DNA from: Actinomycetota bacterium
GTDB lineage: Bacteria > Actinomycetota > CADDZG01 > JAHWKV01 > JAOPZY01
Length of the DNA stretch: 64,000 nucleotides
Direction of reading: 5' to 3'
Assembly: GCA_035765775.1 (NCBI GenBank)
Contig: DASTWV010000050.1
Span: forward strand, 1 to 64,000
Positions 33,864 through 41,256 of the stretch are shown piece after piece (position 1 is the first letter of the stretch; every line of letters begins with the position of its first letter). A program made the translations under genes and the position numbers. The notes beneath the pieces are model-generated. The model saw nothing but the letters and a program-made list of their open reading frames with translations, ran no database searches and was not told the origin of the DNA.

Positions 33864-34682
33864 TTACCCGGTGGCTTGGGCCGCCTCGGGCTGAGCGTCC
33901 TTCTTGGCCTTGGTGGCCTCTACGCTGGCTCGGAGGGCCTCCATGAGGTCCAGGATCTGCGTCGGCTCTGAGGCAGTCGGGGCAACTGCCACTTCCTGGC
34001 CGGCAATCTTCGCCTCGGCGGCCTCCTCGAGGCGCTGCCGGTAGCTGTCGACGAACTGGCCGGGGTCGAAGTGGTCGGTGAGGTTGTCGATGAGGGTCTT
34101 GGCCATCGCCAGCTCCTGCGGGCGGATGTCCACCTGCTTGGAGAGCTGGTCGAAATCGGCGTCCCGGATCTCGTCGGGCCAGTACATGGTCTCCATCACG
34201 AACACCCCGTCCCGCAGGCGCAGGGTGGCCAGGTGCTCCTTCTCCCGCAGGGTGATCTTGGCGATCCCCACCCGCCCCGAATCGGTCAGAGCCTGGGCGA
34301 GCAGCCGGTAGGCCTTGATGCCCGTGGGCTCGGGGGCCAGGTAGTAAGAGCGCTGGAAGTAGATCGGATCGATCTCTTCCAGGGGCACGAACGCCACGAC
34401 ATCGACCGCCCGGACGCTGTCGCTCGGCAGCCGCTCCAGCTCCTCCTCGGTGAAGATGACGTAGCGGTCCTTCTCGTACTCGTAGCCCTTGACGATCTCG
34501 TCGAAGGGAACTTCCTCGTCGTCGATCGAGCACACCCGCTTGTAGCGGATCCGGCCGGAATCGGAGGCGTGGAGCTGGTGGAACTTGAGGCTCCTCTCCT
34601 CGACCGCGGTGAAGAGGCGCACAGGGATGCTGATGAGGCCGAAGGTGATGGCCCCGTTCCAAATGGACCGCATGGCTGGCAT
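33864..34682 (-). CDS. ku: Bacterial Ku, DNA end-binding protein of NHEJ
   Basis: The 272-residue protein starts with the Ku core (RSIWNGAITFGLISIPVRL) and continues with CSIDDEEVPFDEIVKGYEYE and the beta-barrel segments of the family. A short Lys/Ala tail ends it. Ku forms a ring on broken DNA ends and recruits LigD in non-homologous end joining. No ligD is in the window. ATG at 34682 follows GGGAGCC. It is divergent from the NurA-HerA-SbcCD operon. Confidence 0.95.
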   Translation of the reverse strand: MPAMRSIWNGAITFGLISIPVRLFTAVEERSLKFHQLHASDSGRIRYKRVCSIDDEEVPFDEIVKGYEYEKDRYVIFTEEELERLPSDSVRAVDVVAFVPLEEIDPIYFQRSYYLAPEPTGIKAYRLLAQALTDSGRVGIAKITLREKEHLATLRLRDGVFVMETMYWPDEIRDADFDQLSKQVDIRPQELAMAKTLIDNLTDHFDPGQFVDSYRQRLEEAAEAKIAGQEVAVAPTASEPTQILDLMEALRASVEATKAKKDAQPEAAQATG

Positions 34683-34814
34683 GGCTGGCTCCCATGATAG
34701 ACAGCGCCGGCGGCGGAGCGCCCACCGACCCCGGGCGGAGTTCGCACAAGAAAATTTCCCGAGCTTCGATTGTTTGCCGCTGGATTGTCATACCCCCTCA
34801 GTAGCATCGCGGCC
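34683..34814. promoter_or_regulatory. Divergent ku / nurA promoter region
   Basis: These 132 bp must hold the promoters of both repair transcription units. A lower-GC centre (34750-34805) contains TTGTTT and ATTGTC, but no firm -35/-10 pair or LexA palindrome was recognised. Confidence 0.35.
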
Positions 34815-35762
34815 ATGGTTGGTTCACGGGTGGAACGGATGTGGGTCGAGGCGTGGAGCCCGGAGTACGGCACCTCCTACGGGCTGCGGGACGACGACGG
34901 GGCGTCGGGGGCCGAGGAGCCCCAGGGCGAGGCACTGGGCGAGGTGCCCTGGGAGCCGGTCGACCCGGCGCCGGTCCCCTGCCCCGCGGTGGCCTTCCTC
35001 GACGGGGTGAGCCGGGTGGATGCCCGGGTGTTCCTGGACACCGGCGGGGATCCCGCCGTCGGCCTGTGCGGCTCGGTGGGCGTCGGGGCGATGCTTACCG
35101 ACGGCACCGCCCACTTCGCCCCGCCCCGCATCCAGCGGGCCCGAGTCTTCGGCCCCGGGGTGGAGCCCTCGGTGCCGCTGGCCATCGGGAGGCTGGACTA
35201 CGTCGACCGCCCCGCCCGGAGCGCCACGCCCGAGGGGATCCGGATGGCGCTCGAGCGCCTGCGGGAGGAGACCGAGGTGGCCATGGCCGCCAGCCTGGCC
35301 CACGACGGCTGGGTGGTGATCGCCGACGGCCGGCTGCGCCGGGTGGAGCCCGAGAACATCGTCGGCTACATCAAGAGCCAGGACGGCCGGTACCTGGGGC
35401 CGGACCTGGCGCCGCTCGTCGGGCGCCTCGGGGCGGGCCAGCGCACGCCGCTGTTCGGGCTGCGCAGGTCGCACCACTTCTCGTGGTACCTGCGGCTGGC
35501 CTCCAGCCCGGGCGGGCACCCATGGGCGGGCATCGTGCGCTGCGAAGTGAGTGCCTCGCTGCCCCTGTCGAGGGTGGTGGCGCTGGCCGACCTGACCGCC
35601 GCCCACCTGCCCCGCTTCGCCTCGCCCGGCTACTGGGACAGCCGGTCGCCGCAGAACCTGGTGCCTATCGCCACGCTGGAGCGCCGGCTGTGGCACCTGC
35701 TGGGCGACCGGGAGATCGTGCTGCGCCGGATCCGGGCGGCCGCCGCCGGGGGTGGGTCGTGA
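34815..35762 (+). CDS. nurA: NurA-like nuclease
   Basis: The 315-residue protein shows NurA-type features: an early acidic nuclease motif (VAFLDGVSRVDARVF near 59-73), a second acidic block, and YIKSQDGRYLGPDL plus a C-terminal HLPRFASPGYWDSR segment. NurA is a 5'-3' nuclease that works with the HerA translocase in end resection. The herA gene begins in its stop codon (GTGA). The ATG at 34815 was chosen over an upstream in-frame codon that falls in the divergent promoter region. Confidence 0.82.
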   Translation: MVGSRVERMWVEAWSPEYGTSYGLRDDDGASGAEEPQGEALGEVPWEPVDPAPVPCPAVAFLDGVSRVDARVFLDTGGDPAVGLCGSVGVGAMLTDGTAHFAPPRIQRARVFGPGVEPSVPLAIGRLDYVDRPARSATPEGIRMALERLREETEVAMAASLAHDGWVVIADGRLRRVEPENIVGYIKSQDGRYLGPDLAPLVGRLGAGQRTPLFGLRRSHHFSWYLRLASSPGGHPWAGIVRCEVSASLPLSRVVALADLTAAHLPRFASPGYWDSRSPQNLVPIATLERRLWHLLGDREIVLRRIRAAAAGGGS

Positions 35763-37465
35763 GCGACCTGGTGGCCCCGCCGCTGGGCGACCAGCAGCCC
35801 GAGCGGGTGGGCTACGTCCTCGGCCTGGAACCGGCCACCACCACCGAGTTCCGGGTGCTCATCGACGACGACAACTACCTGCAGCTCGACGACCTCGTCG
35901 TGGTCTCGACGCCGGTGCCCAAGGTGGGCGAGGTGCGCACCTACGGGGTGGTCACCGAGGTCGCCGCCCGCTATGAAGGCGGCCGGTTCGAGTCCGACAC
36001 CCTGCGCATCGCCGAGGAGGGCACGATGGACGCCGACCGGACCCGCTCGGCCACCGTGCAGACCATCCGGGTGGTGCCCGAGGTTTGGGTGGCGCCCAAC
36101 CCGGGCCAGCCGGCGGGTCGGGTGGCAGGGCCGTCCCGGGACGAGGCGCTCTACGCCGACGAGATGGGACGCCGCCTGCCGGTGGGCTTCGCCAAGGACG
36201 GCCTGCCCCTGTGGGTCGACGTCGACTTCTTCGATGGCACCAAGGGCGCCCACGTGTCGATCTCCGGGGTGTCGGGCGTGGCCACCAAGACCTCGTTCGC
36301 GCTGGCCTTCCTCCGCCTGCTCACCGCCCACCCCGCCGTGATGGGACCGGCTGCCGCCAACCTGCGGGCGCTGGTGTTCAACGTCAAGGGCGAGGACCTG
36401 CTGTGGCTGGACCGGGCCAACCAGCGGCTCCGGCCCGAGGCGGCGGAGCAGTGGGCGGCGCTGGGTGTCCCTGCCGAGCCGTTCCCGTCGGTGTCGCTGT
36501 GGGCGCCGGTGCGCAGCGGGCCGGAGCTGATCCCGGACACCGAGTCCCGCATCGACGGCGTCCGGGCCTTCTCGTGGACGCCCTACGAATTCGTCCAGCG
36601 GGGCCTCCTGCGCTTCCTCTTCGCCGAGACCGGCGACTTCCGGGCGCAGCTCACCTACGTCGAGGAACGGGTCCGCTCGCAGCTGATCCGCCACGCCGAG
36701 CCCGACCCCCGCCACCCGGGCGTCGTGGTGATCGAGGGCCGGGCGGTGGCGTCGATGCACGACCTGGTCGAGGTGATCGAGGACCACCTGGAGCCGCCCG
36801 ACGGCACCGAGCCCGAGATCGCCTGGACCGGGCGGGTGGCGGGCGGCACGGCGTCGGCGTTCATGCGCCGCCTGCGGGCGGCCGAAGCCCGCCTCGGGCG
36901 CCTGATCCGCCCCGGCGGCCAGCGGGTGGACCGCCTGGCGGAGGCGGTGTGCGTCGTCGACCTCCACAAGCTGCACGAGTTCGCCCAACGCTTCGTCGTC
37001 GGCGCCATCCTGGACGAGGTCTTCGCCGACAAGGAGGCCACCGGCCAGCGCGAGCCGCTGCAGGTCATCGTGCTCGACGAGCTGAACAAGTATGCCCCCC
37101 GGGATGGGCAGTCGCCCATCAAGGACACCCTGGTGGACATCGCCCAGCGGGGCCGGTCGCTGGGGATCATCCTGGTGGGGGCGCAGCAGACCGCCTCCCG
37201 GGTGGCGCCCGAGGTGGTGGAGAACGCCTCGATCCGGGTCGCCGGGCGCCTGGACGCCGCCGAGGCGGAGCGCAGCGAGTACGGCTGGATGCTGCCCTCC
37301 ACCAAGGCCCGGGCCCGCCTGTTCAAGCCCGGGACAATGGTGCTCTTCCAGCCCGGGATCCCGGCTCCCCTGGTGTTCACCTTCCCCTTCCCGCCGTGGG
37401 CTACCCGCAAGGAGGAGGCCGCCCCGGCGGTTGGGCAGGAAGACCCGTTCCGGGGCTTGCGATGA
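35759..37465 (+). CDS. herA: HerA-like DNA translocase ATPase
   Basis: The 568-residue protein has an N-terminal HAS-barrel-like domain (GYVLGLEPATTTEFRVLIDD). Its P-loop region is SGVSGVATKTSFA, with Lys177, a variant Walker A seen in bacterial DUF87/HerA-type proteins. Walker B is VIVLDELNKY, Asp440-Glu441, followed by GRSLGIILVGAQQTAS. HerA is a hexameric translocase that drives NurA. It overlaps nurA by 4 nt and is followed by sbcD and sbcC, as in archaeal resection operons. Confidence 0.88.
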   Translation: MSDLVAPPLGDQQPERVGYVLGLEPATTTEFRVLIDDDNYLQLDDLVVVSTPVPKVGEVRTYGVVTEVAARYEGGRFESDTLRIAEEGTMDADRTRSATVQTIRVVPEVWVAPNPGQPAGRVAGPSRDEALYADEMGRRLPVGFAKDGLPLWVDVDFFDGTKGAHVSISGVSGVATKTSFALAFLRLLTAHPAVMGPAAANLRALVFNVKGEDLLWLDRANQRLRPEAAEQWAALGVPAEPFPSVSLWAPVRSGPELIPDTESRIDGVRAFSWTPYEFVQRGLLRFLFAETGDFRAQLTYVEERVRSQLIRHAEPDPRHPGVVVIEGRAVASMHDLVEVIEDHLEPPDGTEPEIAWTGRVAGGTASAFMRRLRAAEARLGRLIRPGGQRVDRLAEAVCVVDLHKLHEFAQRFVVGAILDEVFADKEATGQREPLQVIVLDELNKYAPRDGQSPIKDTLVDIAQRGRSLGIILVGAQQTASRVAPEVVENASIRVAGRLDAAEAERSEYGWMLPSTKARARLFKPGTMVLFQPGIPAPLVFTFPFPPWATRKEEAAPAVGQEDPFRGLR

Positions 37466-37659
37466 GGGGCATTCGGGCCCCGTTCCACAGTTGGGGGCGC
37501 AGGGCCACGGGCAAGGAGTTCTGGGGTCATTTTTCCGCCAAAAAGACGGCAAAAAGTCCCCAGAACTTGTGCCGAAACGGACTCATCCCCGGTCTGGCCA
37601 CCGTCGACGACCCCCCCGTCCATCGGGGCCTGGCTTCACTGCCGGGTGGTGTCCGATGA
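37462..37659 (+). CDS. Possible 65-residue protein bridging herA and sbcD
   Basis: An ORF begins with ATG inside the herA stop (ATGA at 37462) and ends with a TGA that overlaps the sbcD ATG (ATGA at 37656). Its frame therefore fills the gap exactly, as expected of a translationally coupled gene. The product is basic and Gly/Arg/Lys-rich with no known domain, and there is no clear ribosome binding site. The middle third is also the hairpin at 37517-37567, so it could be RNA structure rather than protein. Confidence 0.28.
   Translation: MRGIRAPFHSWGRRATGKEFWGHFSAKKTAKSPQNLCRNGLIPGLATVDDPPVHRGLASLPGGVR
37517..37567 (+). repeat. Long hairpin between herA and sbcD
   Basis: AGTTCTGGGG (37517-37526) and CCCCAGAACT (37558-37567) pair perfectly. 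T-rich and A-rich inner parts and CCG/CGG (37535-37537 with 37547-37549) extend the stem. It could be an attenuator, an mRNA processing site or a dispersed palindromic repeat. Confidence 0.55.
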
Positions 37660-38825
37660 GGATCCTGCACACCGCCGACTGGCACGCCGGCAAGCGGCTG
37701 GGGCGCATCGACCGCAGCGCCGAGTTCGCCGCCGCCTTCGACGAGGTGGTGGCAGTGGCCAAGGACCAGAAGGTGGACCTGGTGATCGTCGCCGGGGACC
37801 TGCTGGACCGGGCCCTCGCCACCTTCGATGCCATCGCCCTGGTGCTCGACACGCTGCGCCGCCTGGCCGACAGCGCCGGCCACGTCGTGGCCATCACTGG
37901 CAATCACGACTCCCCCGCCCTCTTCGAGCTCCTCGCCCCGCTGCTGGCCTCGATGGGGGTGCACCTGGTGCCCCGCATCCGCCCGCCGGGTGCCGGGGGG
38001 GTGGTGACCGTGCCCTCCCGGGACGGGCGGGAGACCGCGGCGGTGGCCGCCCTCCCGTTCCTGCACGAGGCCGAGGTGGTCGACTTCCTCGCCCAGTCCG
38101 AGGAATGGTTCAAGGGCTACGACGCCCGGATCCAGGCGCTGTGCGGGGCGCTGTGCGCCGCCCTGCCGGCGGACGCCGTGCGCATCCTGACCGGCCACTT
38201 CTTCGTCGCCGGCGCCGAGCTGGGCGGCGGCGAGCGCAAGATCCAGGTCGGCCCGCAGTACGCCGCCACCCAGCAGGCGATCCCGGCGACCATCCAGTAC
38301 GCCGCCCTCGGCCACATCCATAAGCCGCAGGAGATCAACGGGGCGGCGGTGCGGGCCCGGTACTCGGGCAGCGTCCTGCAGCTCGATTTCTCCGAGCGCA
38401 CCCACCAGAAACAGGTGGTGGTGGTCGAGGCCGCCCCCGGGCGCCCGGCCAAGGTGGAGTGCATCCAGTTGGTGGCCGGGCGCCGCCTGCTCCGGGTCGA
38501 GGGCACGATGGAGGAGTTGCGCGCCCGGGTGGACGAACTCGCCGGTGCCTACCTCGACGTGCGGGTGCAGACCGCCGGCCCGGTGTTCGGCCTGGCCGAG
38601 GAGGTCCGCCGGTTCCTCCCCGATGCGGTGCAGGTGTCGGGGCACTGGGAGCGCCAGGAGCCCGGGGCGGGCGATGGCACGGCTCTCCAGGACCGCTCCC
38701 TCGCCTCGGCCTACGCCGAGTTCCACGCCCTGGACAAGCCCCGGGGCTACGGGGTGCCGGCGCCGCCCGCCCTGCTGGCCGCGGTCCGGGAGCTGGAGGA
38801 GGAGGTGCTGCGTGCGACCTCTTGA
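37656..38825 (+). CDS. sbcD: SbcD/Mre11-type exonuclease subunit
   Basis: The 389-residue protein has all calcineurin-like nuclease motifs: HTADWHAGK, VIVAGDLLDR, ITGNHDSP, LTGHFF and LGHIHKP. These coordinate two metal ions. The C-terminal part holds the capping and SbcC-binding regions. With SbcC it forms the SbcCD (Mre11-Rad50) complex that opens hairpins and blocked ends. It overlaps sbcC by 14 nt. Confidence 0.95.
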   Translation: MRILHTADWHAGKRLGRIDRSAEFAAAFDEVVAVAKDQKVDLVIVAGDLLDRALATFDAIALVLDTLRRLADSAGHVVAITGNHDSPALFELLAPLLASMGVHLVPRIRPPGAGGVVTVPSRDGRETAAVAALPFLHEAEVVDFLAQSEEWFKGYDARIQALCGALCAALPADAVRILTGHFFVAGAELGGGERKIQVGPQYAATQQAIPATIQYAALGHIHKPQEINGAAVRARYSGSVLQLDFSERTHQKQVVVVEAAPGRPAKVECIQLVAGRRLLRVEGTMEELRARVDELAGAYLDVRVQTAGPVFGLAEEVRRFLPDAVQVSGHWERQEPGAGDGTALQDRSLASAYAEFHALDKPRGYGVPAPPALLAAVRELEEEVLRATS

Positions 38826-41256
38826 GCTCACCCTGGACGGCTTCCGCTCGTACCGGTCCGAGGCCAGCTTCGACTTCGAGGGCCGGGGCCTGTTCGGCAT
38901 CGTCGGCCCCACCGGGGCGGGCAAGTCCTCGATCCTGGACGCCCTCATCTATGCCCTGTACGGGCGCACCCCCCGGATCGGGCGGGAGACCAAGCAGCTC
39001 ATCCATTCGGGCGCCGACCTGGCCCGGGTACGGCTGCGCTTCGAGGTGGACGGGGTCGGTTGGGACGTCCTGCGGGTGCTGCGCCGGGCGGGTTCGTCGC
39101 AGGTGACTTTGCGCCGGATGGACGACGGGTCGCTGGAGCGGGAGAAGGAGCGGGATGTCAACGACCGCATCGTCGAGATCGTGGGCTTGGACTACGAAGC
39201 CTTCTGCTCGTCGGTCACCCTGCCCCAGGGCAAGTTCGACAAGTTCCTGACCGCCACCCCGGCGGAGCGCTCCCGGATCCTGAAGGGCATCTTCCGCTAC
39301 GAGCGCGTCGATGCCATGCGGGAGGCGGCGAAGGCCCGGATCGGCGACATCGCGGTCGACCTGAAGGCGGCCCAGTCGGAGCTGGACGGGCTGGCGCCCG
39401 ACCTGGAGGGCTCCATCGCCACGTTGGCGGCGCAGCGGGAGGCGGTCGATGCCCGCTGCACCGCGCTCTCAGCCGCCGCCGACGAGTTCGCCGCCGCCGA
39501 GGCCCTGGCCGCCGGTGTGGCGAGGCAGCTGCAGGAAGTCGCCGCCGAGGTATGGCGCATCGAGCAGGCCTTGGCGAGTGTCCCGGCCGACGGTGCCCTG
39601 GAGGCCCTGGCCGAGGAGGAAGAGCGGGGCGCGGCCCGGGTCACCGCCGCCGCCGACTGGGAAGAGCATGCCCAGGCCGAGACCGCCCGGCTCACCTCCG
39701 AACTGGTCGGCCTGGAGGCTGAGCTCGCCGGCCCCGGGCTGCAACAGGCTAGGAACCGCTGGGCACGCCACCAGCAGCTCCGTTCCGGCGACGCCGCCCG
39801 GCGGGCGGCCGTCGCCCAGCGCGCCGCTGCCGCCGAGGCGGCCCAGCGGGAGCTGGCGTCCCGGGTGGCTGCCCGTGCGGCGGCCGAGCAGGCGGCGGCC
39901 CAGGCGTCGGCCGCGGTCCGGGCGGCCCACCAGGCCCACGCGGCCCATGTGCTGCGGGAGGGCCTGCACCCGGGAGACCCGTGCCCGGTATGCGCCCAGG
40001 CGGTGGGCACCCTGCCCGCCGTCGCGGCCCCGCCCACCCTGGCCGCTGCCGAGAGCGCCGACCGCAAGGCGGCGGCCGCCCTGCGAGGGGCCGCCGAGGC
40101 CGCCAGCGATGCCCAGTCGGGGGCCGGGGTCGCCGAGGAACGCCGGGCCGCCGCCGAGGCAGAGCTGGCCGCCGCCGAGCGGGAGGTGGCGGGGCTGGTG
40201 GCCGACCTTGCTGCTTTCCTGGGCGGCGGGATCGACCCGGGCGCCGAGATCGCCCGGCGGGAGCAGGTGGTGGCGGCCGCCCGGGAGGCCGCGTCCGCTG
40301 CCTTCCAGGCCGCCGACCGGGCCCGGCGCGAAGCGGACAGCGCCCGCCGAGCCCTGGATGGCGTCCTGCTCCGGCGCCGCTCGGCCGCCGCATCGTTGAT
40401 CGGGGTCGCTGCCCGGCTCGGGCTGGAGCCACCGAGCCCGGAGGACGAGGCATCGGTGCTGCTGGGCGTCGCCAAGCGGGCCCGGGACGCCGGCGCCGAA
40501 GCCCTGGGTGCGCAAAGCACGCGCCGGACCGACGTGGTGCGGGAAGAGGAGGCCAGCCGGGCGGCACTCGCCGGTCTCCGTACCCGGCTCGGGCTGGCCC
40601 CCGGGCAGCGCCTGGACGAGGCCCTGCAGGAGGCAGCCCGCCAGCAGGGCGCCCTGGCCCACCGGATCGACTCGCTGCGGGCTGACATCGAGAAGCGGGA
40701 CATGCTGCAGGCGAAAGTGGCGGCCGCCCAGGAGCGCCGGGCGATCTACCAGCAGCTGTGGTCCGACCTGAGCGACACCAAGTTCATCGCCTACCTGCTG
40801 GACACGCACCGCCAGGCCCTGGCCCGGGTGGGCTCCGAGAAGCTCTTCCAGCTCACCAACCGCTACCGCTTCGACGACGAGGGCCAGTTCCAGCTGCTGG
40901 ACAGTGCCCAGAACGACGAGCCCCGCACGGCCGACACCCTGTCGGGCGGGGAGACCTTCCTGGCGTCGCTGGCCCTGGCCCTCGCCCTGGCCGACGCCGT
41001 GTCGCAGGGGGGCAGCCGCCTGGAGTGCTTCTTCCTCGACGAGGGCTTCGGATCGCTGGACATCGCCAGCTTGGACCTGGCCCTGGACGGGATCGAGAGC
41101 CTGGCCGAGCCGGGCCGCCTGGTGGGGGTGATCTCCCATGTGGGCGGCGTGCAGGCCCGCCTCGACGACCTCATCGTGCTGGACAAGGCGGAGGACGGGT
41201 CGACGGTCGTGGTGCAGTCCGAGGGCCCGATCGCGTACCACGCAGCGACGATCTGA
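38812..41256 (+). CDS. sbcC: SbcC/Rad50-type ATPase subunit
   Basis: The 814-residue SMC-like protein has Walker A GPTGAGKSS (near 33), the Q-loop LPQGKFDKF and long Ala/Glu/Arg coiled coils (about 180-390 and 395-660). The zinc hook is CPVC (Cys391, Cys394). The ABC signature LSGGETFLAS is near 710 and Walker B FFLDEGFGSLD near 741. It holds two DNA ends and regulates SbcD. GGAGG about 10 nt upstream supports the GTG at 38812. It is somewhat shorter than E. coli SbcC, with shorter coils. Confidence 0.95.
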   Translation: MRPLELTLDGFRSYRSEASFDFEGRGLFGIVGPTGAGKSSILDALIYALYGRTPRIGRETKQLIHSGADLARVRLRFEVDGVGWDVLRVLRRAGSSQVTLRRMDDGSLEREKERDVNDRIVEIVGLDYEAFCSSVTLPQGKFDKFLTATPAERSRILKGIFRYERVDAMREAAKARIGDIAVDLKAAQSELDGLAPDLEGSIATLAAQREAVDARCTALSAAADEFAAAEALAAGVARQLQEVAAEVWRIEQALASVPADGALEALAEEEERGAARVTAAADWEEHAQAETARLTSELVGLEAELAGPGLQQARNRWARHQQLRSGDAARRAAVAQRAAAAEAAQRELASRVAARAAAEQAAAQASAAVRAAHQAHAAHVLREGLHPGDPCPVCAQAVGTLPAVAAPPTLAAAESADRKAAAALRGAAEAASDAQSGAGVAEERRAAAEAELAAAEREVAGLVADLAAFLGGGIDPGAEIARREQVVAAAREAASAAFQAADRARREADSARRALDGVLLRRRSAAASLIGVAARLGLEPPSPEDEASVLLGVAKRARDAGAEALGAQSTRRTDVVREEEASRAALAGLRTRLGLAPGQRLDEALQEAARQQGALAHRIDSLRADIEKRDMLQAKVAAAQERRAIYQQLWSDLSDTKFIAYLLDTHRQALARVGSEKLFQLTNRYRFDDEGQFQLLDSAQNDEPRTADTLSGGETFLASLALALALADAVSQGGSRLECFFLDEGFGSLDIASLDLALDGIESLAEPGRLVGVISHVGGVQARLDDLIVLDKAEDGSTVVVQSEGPIAYHAATI

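Follow-up and report, generated by a model that had tools for sequence, protein, structure and literature searches.

The window analysed here, a stretch of 64,000 nucleotides, comes from an uncultured actinobacterium that is known from assemblies and belongs to the same order as the isolate OFTM241. Within it nurA, herA, sbcD and sbcC follow one another on the plus strand, and ku is transcribed away from them on the minus strand (Table 1). A sequence-only reading of this DNA had named these genes, placed them and pointed out the divergent ku with 132 bp between the two start codons, all of which we could verify, but it had also described the four genes as one tightly coupled run in an archaeal order, encoding archaeal-style proteins, and in these respects it needs correction.

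As to the coupling, nurA and herA overlap by GTGA (35759-35762) and the start codon of sbcC falls within the 3' end of sbcD, whereas 190 nt (37466-37655) lie between herA and sbcD and hold a hairpin repeated throughout the genome. One of its arms, CAAAAAGTCCCCAGAACTT, has 16 genomic copies when up to two mismatches are allowed (reversed control, 0), and further copies of the hairpin repeat lie elsewhere in the same genome (for example G000:C23, C43 and C54). The hairpin looks like a REP-type repeat, and the sister genome G001 carries different hairpins at its herA-sbcD junction. A gap of this length, with its hairpin, could uncouple sbcDC from nurA-herA.

Table 1. Genes and other features around the divergent ku and nurA starts, in window coordinates.
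Feature	Position	Strand	Basis or remark
ku	33864-34682	-	ATG at 34682, alternative in-frame ATG 34673; TIGR02772, PF02735
Region between start codons, ku / nurA	34683-34814		132 bp
RecA-NDp/PafBC-type promoter (putative)	34785-34807	+	-10 TAGCAT at 34802-34807
nurA, bacterial-type NurA nuclease	34815-35762	+	PDB 7f6d_H; alignments; predicted fold
herA, bacterial-type HerA hexameric translocase	35759-37465	+	PDB 7f6d_B; alignment
REP-like hairpin AGTTCTGGGG...CCCCAGAACT	37517-37567		inside herA-sbcD gap
sbcD, Mre11-type nuclease	37656-38825	+	TIGR00619, PF00149
sbcC, Rad50-type ATPase	about 38812-41256	+	start GTG 38812 or TTG 38822

The encoded repair proteins

No Pfam or NCBIfam model scored above threshold for the NurA or the HerA of the window, and both proteins find their counterparts in the D. 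radiodurans complex 7f6d, with phmmer E-values of 5.5e-21 for NurA (7f6d_H) and 2e-109 for HerA (7f6d_B). The AlphaFold2 model of NurA (pLDDT 88.7) has the RNase H-like NurA fold and in Foldseek lies closest to D. radiodurans NurA (7f6d_G, E 1e-18; 29% identity over the model) and to Thermotoga NurA (1zup, E 1e-14). On alignment, D63, K187 and R277 of the window NurA correspond to D53, K201 and R309 of the D. radiodurans enzyme, mutation of which abolishes nuclease activity (PMC9960219); all three are invariant in 39 homologues, as is D171, so that the concern that this NurA-like protein might lack nuclease residues is not borne out. HerA has likewise kept its Walker A (K177/T178, equivalent to K175/T176 in D. 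radiodurans) and Walker B (D440/E441, equivalent to D487/E488) residues, with the pore arginine R448 (R495) nearly invariant and the TR-motif arginine R505 (R552) invariant in the alignment. By these comparisons NurA and HerA are of the bacterial, D. radiodurans type, with every catalytic residue that we tested retained, and they are not archaeal in style; identity between archaeal and bacterial NurA-HerA is under 20% (PMC9960219).

The D. radiodurans system (PDB 7f6d, 7wrw, 7wrx; PMC9960219) shares with the window the protein type, the catalytic and translocation residues and the adjacency of nurA and herA. It differs in that no sbcDC has been reported in its nurA-herA operon and no PafBC-type promoter is known for it; the organism is said to lack Mre11-Rad50 (PMC12977600). 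Without nurA-herA it became more resistant to UV and to mitomycin C (PMC9960219), which counts against the resection model given below.

Judged by their sequences, SbcD, SbcC and Ku are typical of their families. SbcD matches TIGR00619 with 156 bits (cut-off 77.65) as well as the metallophosphoesterase family PF00149, and SbcC combines PF13476 and PF13558, the two parts of a split ATPase, with a CPVC zinc-hook motif (CxxC) and matches TIGR00618 with an E-value of 9e-78 that is nonetheless under the curated cut-off. Ku, the only one of the genome, matches TIGR02772 with 318.9 bits (cut-off 150) and PF02735. LigD phosphoesterase and ligase domains are encoded at G000:C35, not close to ku, and the genome also encodes an AdnAB-like helicase-nuclease pair; classical end joining and classical resection therefore coexist with the operon. 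We had considered whether NurA-HerA substitutes for AdnAB/AddAB, which is ruled out by the presence of that pair, and PDDEXK_1 was found in all 61 of the 61 genomes searched.

Distribution of the four-gene set and of its ku neighbor

HerA of this type is strongly matched in 21 of the 24 genomes of the class, counting G015, where the gene is broken; among 149 genomes sampled from the phylum, 28 have such a match. Scanning named genomes gave 573 places, of which the best 80, in Actinomycetota, Chloroflexota, Gemmatimonadota and other groups, were annotated together with unnamed relatives, about 100 distinct loci altogether. At nearly every one of these loci with enough flanking sequence the HerA gene is accompanied by all four genes, in one of two main orders, nurA-herA-sbcD-sbcC or herA-sbcD-sbcC-nurA. 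Where a gene is missing, a contig end almost always truncates the locus; an Eremiobacterota contig (L199), which has nurA-herA only, clearly departs from this. Because the same four genes recur at nearly all uncut loci examined, the set is not a chance grouping, and the survey that had been suggested for nurA-herA beside sbcDC thus finds it in several bacterial phyla. In G015 (L058, on G015:C5) herA is seemingly broken into several frames, and sbcD, sbcC and nurA are intact.

The gene order had been equated with that of archaea. Archaea do have this set of genes, and Sulfolobus carries the same four functions in one cluster (PMC4351679, PMC2288612), but there the order is herA, mre11, rad50, nurA (PMC4351679), which is that of the second, herA-first bacterial group and not that of the window; the Sulfolobus operon also differs in having proteins of another branch, no PafBC and no ku. 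A closer bacterial parallel is the nurA-hepA-sbcD-sbcC of Oceanithermus profundus (PMC5448004), where sbcD and sbcC lie directly downstream of herA as they do here, although this is a single species of the Thermales, mentioned in passing and with no promoter or regulon described. NurA-HerA has been described as present in 'a limited number of bacteria' (PMC11442139). In a search of openly accessible papers we found none that describes nurA-herA-sbcDC as an operon of Actinomycetota or names it as a target of PafBC, and such an operon as an actinobacterial PafBC target may be new.

The ku gene has a much narrower association with the set. Besides the window, G001 of the same family and G004 of the same order have it next to the operon, so that the adjacency is not unique to this contig, and in G031 (L046) it lies about 3.3 kb away. 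It is not beside the operon in four other genomes of the order (G002, G003, G005 and G006; in G005 it is about 517 kb away), nor at any of the best 80 of the 573 named-genome places. Since three genomes alone have the arrangement and it is missing from four sisters and 80 named loci, ku is best regarded as a lineage-specific neighbor, outside any conserved unit.

A putative damage promoter ahead of nurA

The sequence upstream of nurA reads TTGTCATAC-CCCCTCAG-TAGCAT-CGCGGCC-ATG, in which the -10 hexamer TAGCAT stands 7 nt ahead of the ATG and predicts a leaderless start. It can be compared with the RecA-independent damage promoter of mycobacteria (RecA-NDp), whose consensus is tTGTCRgtg-N8-TannnT (PMC5656591): TTGTCR, TAnnnT and the spacing agree (TTGTCR-N11-TAnnnT in both), but the gtg is absent, with TAC in its place. 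Neither a sigma-70 consensus promoter nor a LexA-type box (GAAC-N4-GTTC) was found in 34683-34814.

At the sites of this genome the bases that follow TGTCR are NACC, as against gtg in the mycobacterial consensus, and the pattern TGTCRNACC-N7-TANNNT has 20 exact copies in the 3.6-Mb genome, compared with 0 for the reversed control and about 0.5 expected from composition; over the 24 genomes of the class the counts are 177 and, reversed, 11. A start codon lies 5-9 nt past the motif at 13 of the 20 sites, whereas 8% of randomly chosen positions have one there (binomial P 4e-10). With a PWM trained on the own-genome sites minus that of the window, and with thresholds chosen after the motif had been seen, the motif was detected ahead of nurA at 27 of the 38 nurA-first loci from Actinomycetota (in 26 the start codon follows 5-9 nt later), at none of eight nurA-first operons outside Actinomycetota, and in 13 of 41 herA-first actinobacterial loci, most of which have no clear site. 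In G001 the form used is TTGTCGGTACC, which is closer to the mycobacterial one; G001 has TTGTCGGTA, with GTA at the gtg position. That genome has no TGTCRNACC sites and six TTGTCGGT sites, the one at nurA included, and the favored motif has apparently changed between the two sister genera.

Pattern searches of the genome place the motif before, among others, recA, radA, the rpsF-ssb operon, dnaB, dnaN, rmuC and yraN, and also before two DUF222 genes, DUF559/AbiEi-type genes, an endonuclease VII-type gene and a homing endonuclease gene. PafB and PafC are both encoded (matches to 7p5x, 9fnd and 6sj9), in a Pup-proteasome cluster of the order prcB-prcA-pafA-...-pafB-pafC-...-tatA-tatC (prcB, prcA, pafA and tatC by NCBIfam). 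Actinobacterial sigma-A promoters normally have TAnnnT as their -10, and many genes of Actinomycetota are leaderless, both of which would suit a general leaderless housekeeping promoter unrelated to damage; we consider this decidedly unlikely, given that exact copies number only 20 in 3.6 Mb and for the most part precede genes for DNA repair, replication or nucleases, that the N11 spacing from TGTCR to TAnnnT is that of RecA-NDp, and that PafBC is encoded. The nurA promoter would rather belong to the same class of damage switch as those of recA and radA. Activation of PafBC comes from ssDNA, and the active protein redirects RNA polymerase to promoters of this kind (PMC11804915); the mycobacterial PafBC (RecA-NDp, P1) regulon (PMC5656591, PMC6789036, PMC11804915) has in common with the window genome the promoter core and its spacing, the location of PafBC in the Pup-proteasome cluster and recA as a target. 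It differs in that the targets we found named there do not include nurA-herA-sbcDC.

It had been proposed that the region between ku and nurA is a shared control region that could set the choice of repair pathway. A damage-type promoter is indeed present there, but for nurA only: by the PWM the ku side of the window, like that of G001, has no damage motif (region P about 1), and it is in G004 that a strong motif, TGTCGTACCCCATAGGTAAGCT, faces ku in addition to the nurA-side site. One lineage may thus have shared control, for which the window gives no support. That the region is nevertheless a true switch, a single damage-responsive stretch serving both end joining and resection, could draw on the divergence of ku and nurA in three genomes of the order, on the G004 site and on weak motif matches upstream of ku in some relatives of family f2; it is distinctly improbable in view of the missing ku-facing motif in the window and G001, and of an adjacency that is absent from four sisters and from all 80 named loci, whereas the nurA motif persists. 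The earlier interpretation is in this way partly supported, after examination of both of the findings it had named as able to overturn it, a NurA without nuclease residues and a ku adjacency confined to one contig.

Resection as a candidate output of PafBC

We think it probable that nurA-herA-sbcD-sbcC is a resection operon that is induced through PafBC by ssDNA, the regulatory part being read from sequence. Transcribed as a single unit, the operon would encode a complete bacterial machine for the resection of double-strand breaks, in which SbcCD would open blocked ends and cooperate with NurA-HerA, the HerA ring would pump duplex DNA into the NurA dimer, and NurA would cut the 5' strand to leave a 3' tail for RecA. 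Single-stranded DNA at breaks would activate PafBC, which would redirect the housekeeping RNA polymerase to TTGTCR...TAnnnT promoters, that of nurA among them, and the resection genes would rise together with RecA, RadA and SSB. As ku has no site in the window it would not be induced by this route, and damage would therefore tilt repair from end joining toward recombination. If so, nurA-herA-sbcDC is a likely addition to the targets of PafBC, and suggests a route by which the balance could move from end joining toward resection.

What HerA-NurA does is disputed between resection and antiviral defence, and a 2026 study of the archaeal proteins doubts the resection role (PMC12977600). It is conceivable that HerA-NurA, perhaps with SbcCD, serves here mainly as a defence system against foreign linear DNA and not in repair, as an antiviral role has been suggested for the archaeal pair and is known for HerA together with Sir2 or DUF4297 (PMC12977600), and some PADLOC models for HerA and Mads do match. 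These matches are weak and confined to the ATPase core, however, the four genes are conserved within this bacterial order and across several phyla, their promoter class is common to recA, radA and ssb, and a single scan with one sequence returned no HerA relatives among viral contigs, all of which leaves defence an unlikely main role. A four-gene operon found in several phyla and tied, in actinobacteria, to a recA-type damage promoter argues instead for a role in repair.

Resection by such an operon could also feed its own induction. Because NurA-HerA makes ssDNA, the PafBC loop may be self-reinforcing until repair is achieved: resection would yield ssDNA, ssDNA would activate PafBC, and PafBC would raise the resection operon along with recA and radA and leave ku uninduced, so that one signal would commit the cell to recombination. 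The second motif before ku in G004 would then be the same choice, rewired. This extension is more speculative than the operon's induction itself, and we offer it tentatively, as a possibility that is somewhat less likely to be right than wrong.

Several other features of the motif sites may be recorded. Genes of homing-endonuclease, DUF559/AbiEi-type, endonuclease VII and DUF222 kinds lie directly behind the motif at eight loci of the window's own genome (L089, L090, L094, L095, L096, L099, L101 and L106), as if mobile or selfish genes borrowed the damage promoter. The recA gene (L102, G000:C53) has a LAGLIDADG domain within its reading frame, as in an intein. In G038, 24 sites have a near-constant TGTCACACCCCTG..TTATA form and are perhaps another promoter or a repeat family. 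Finally, rmuC with its motif lies upstream of the AdnAB-like pair on the same strand (L212, G000:C4:63-72 kb), and G001 has a motif site at a similar distance from its own AdnAB-like pair.
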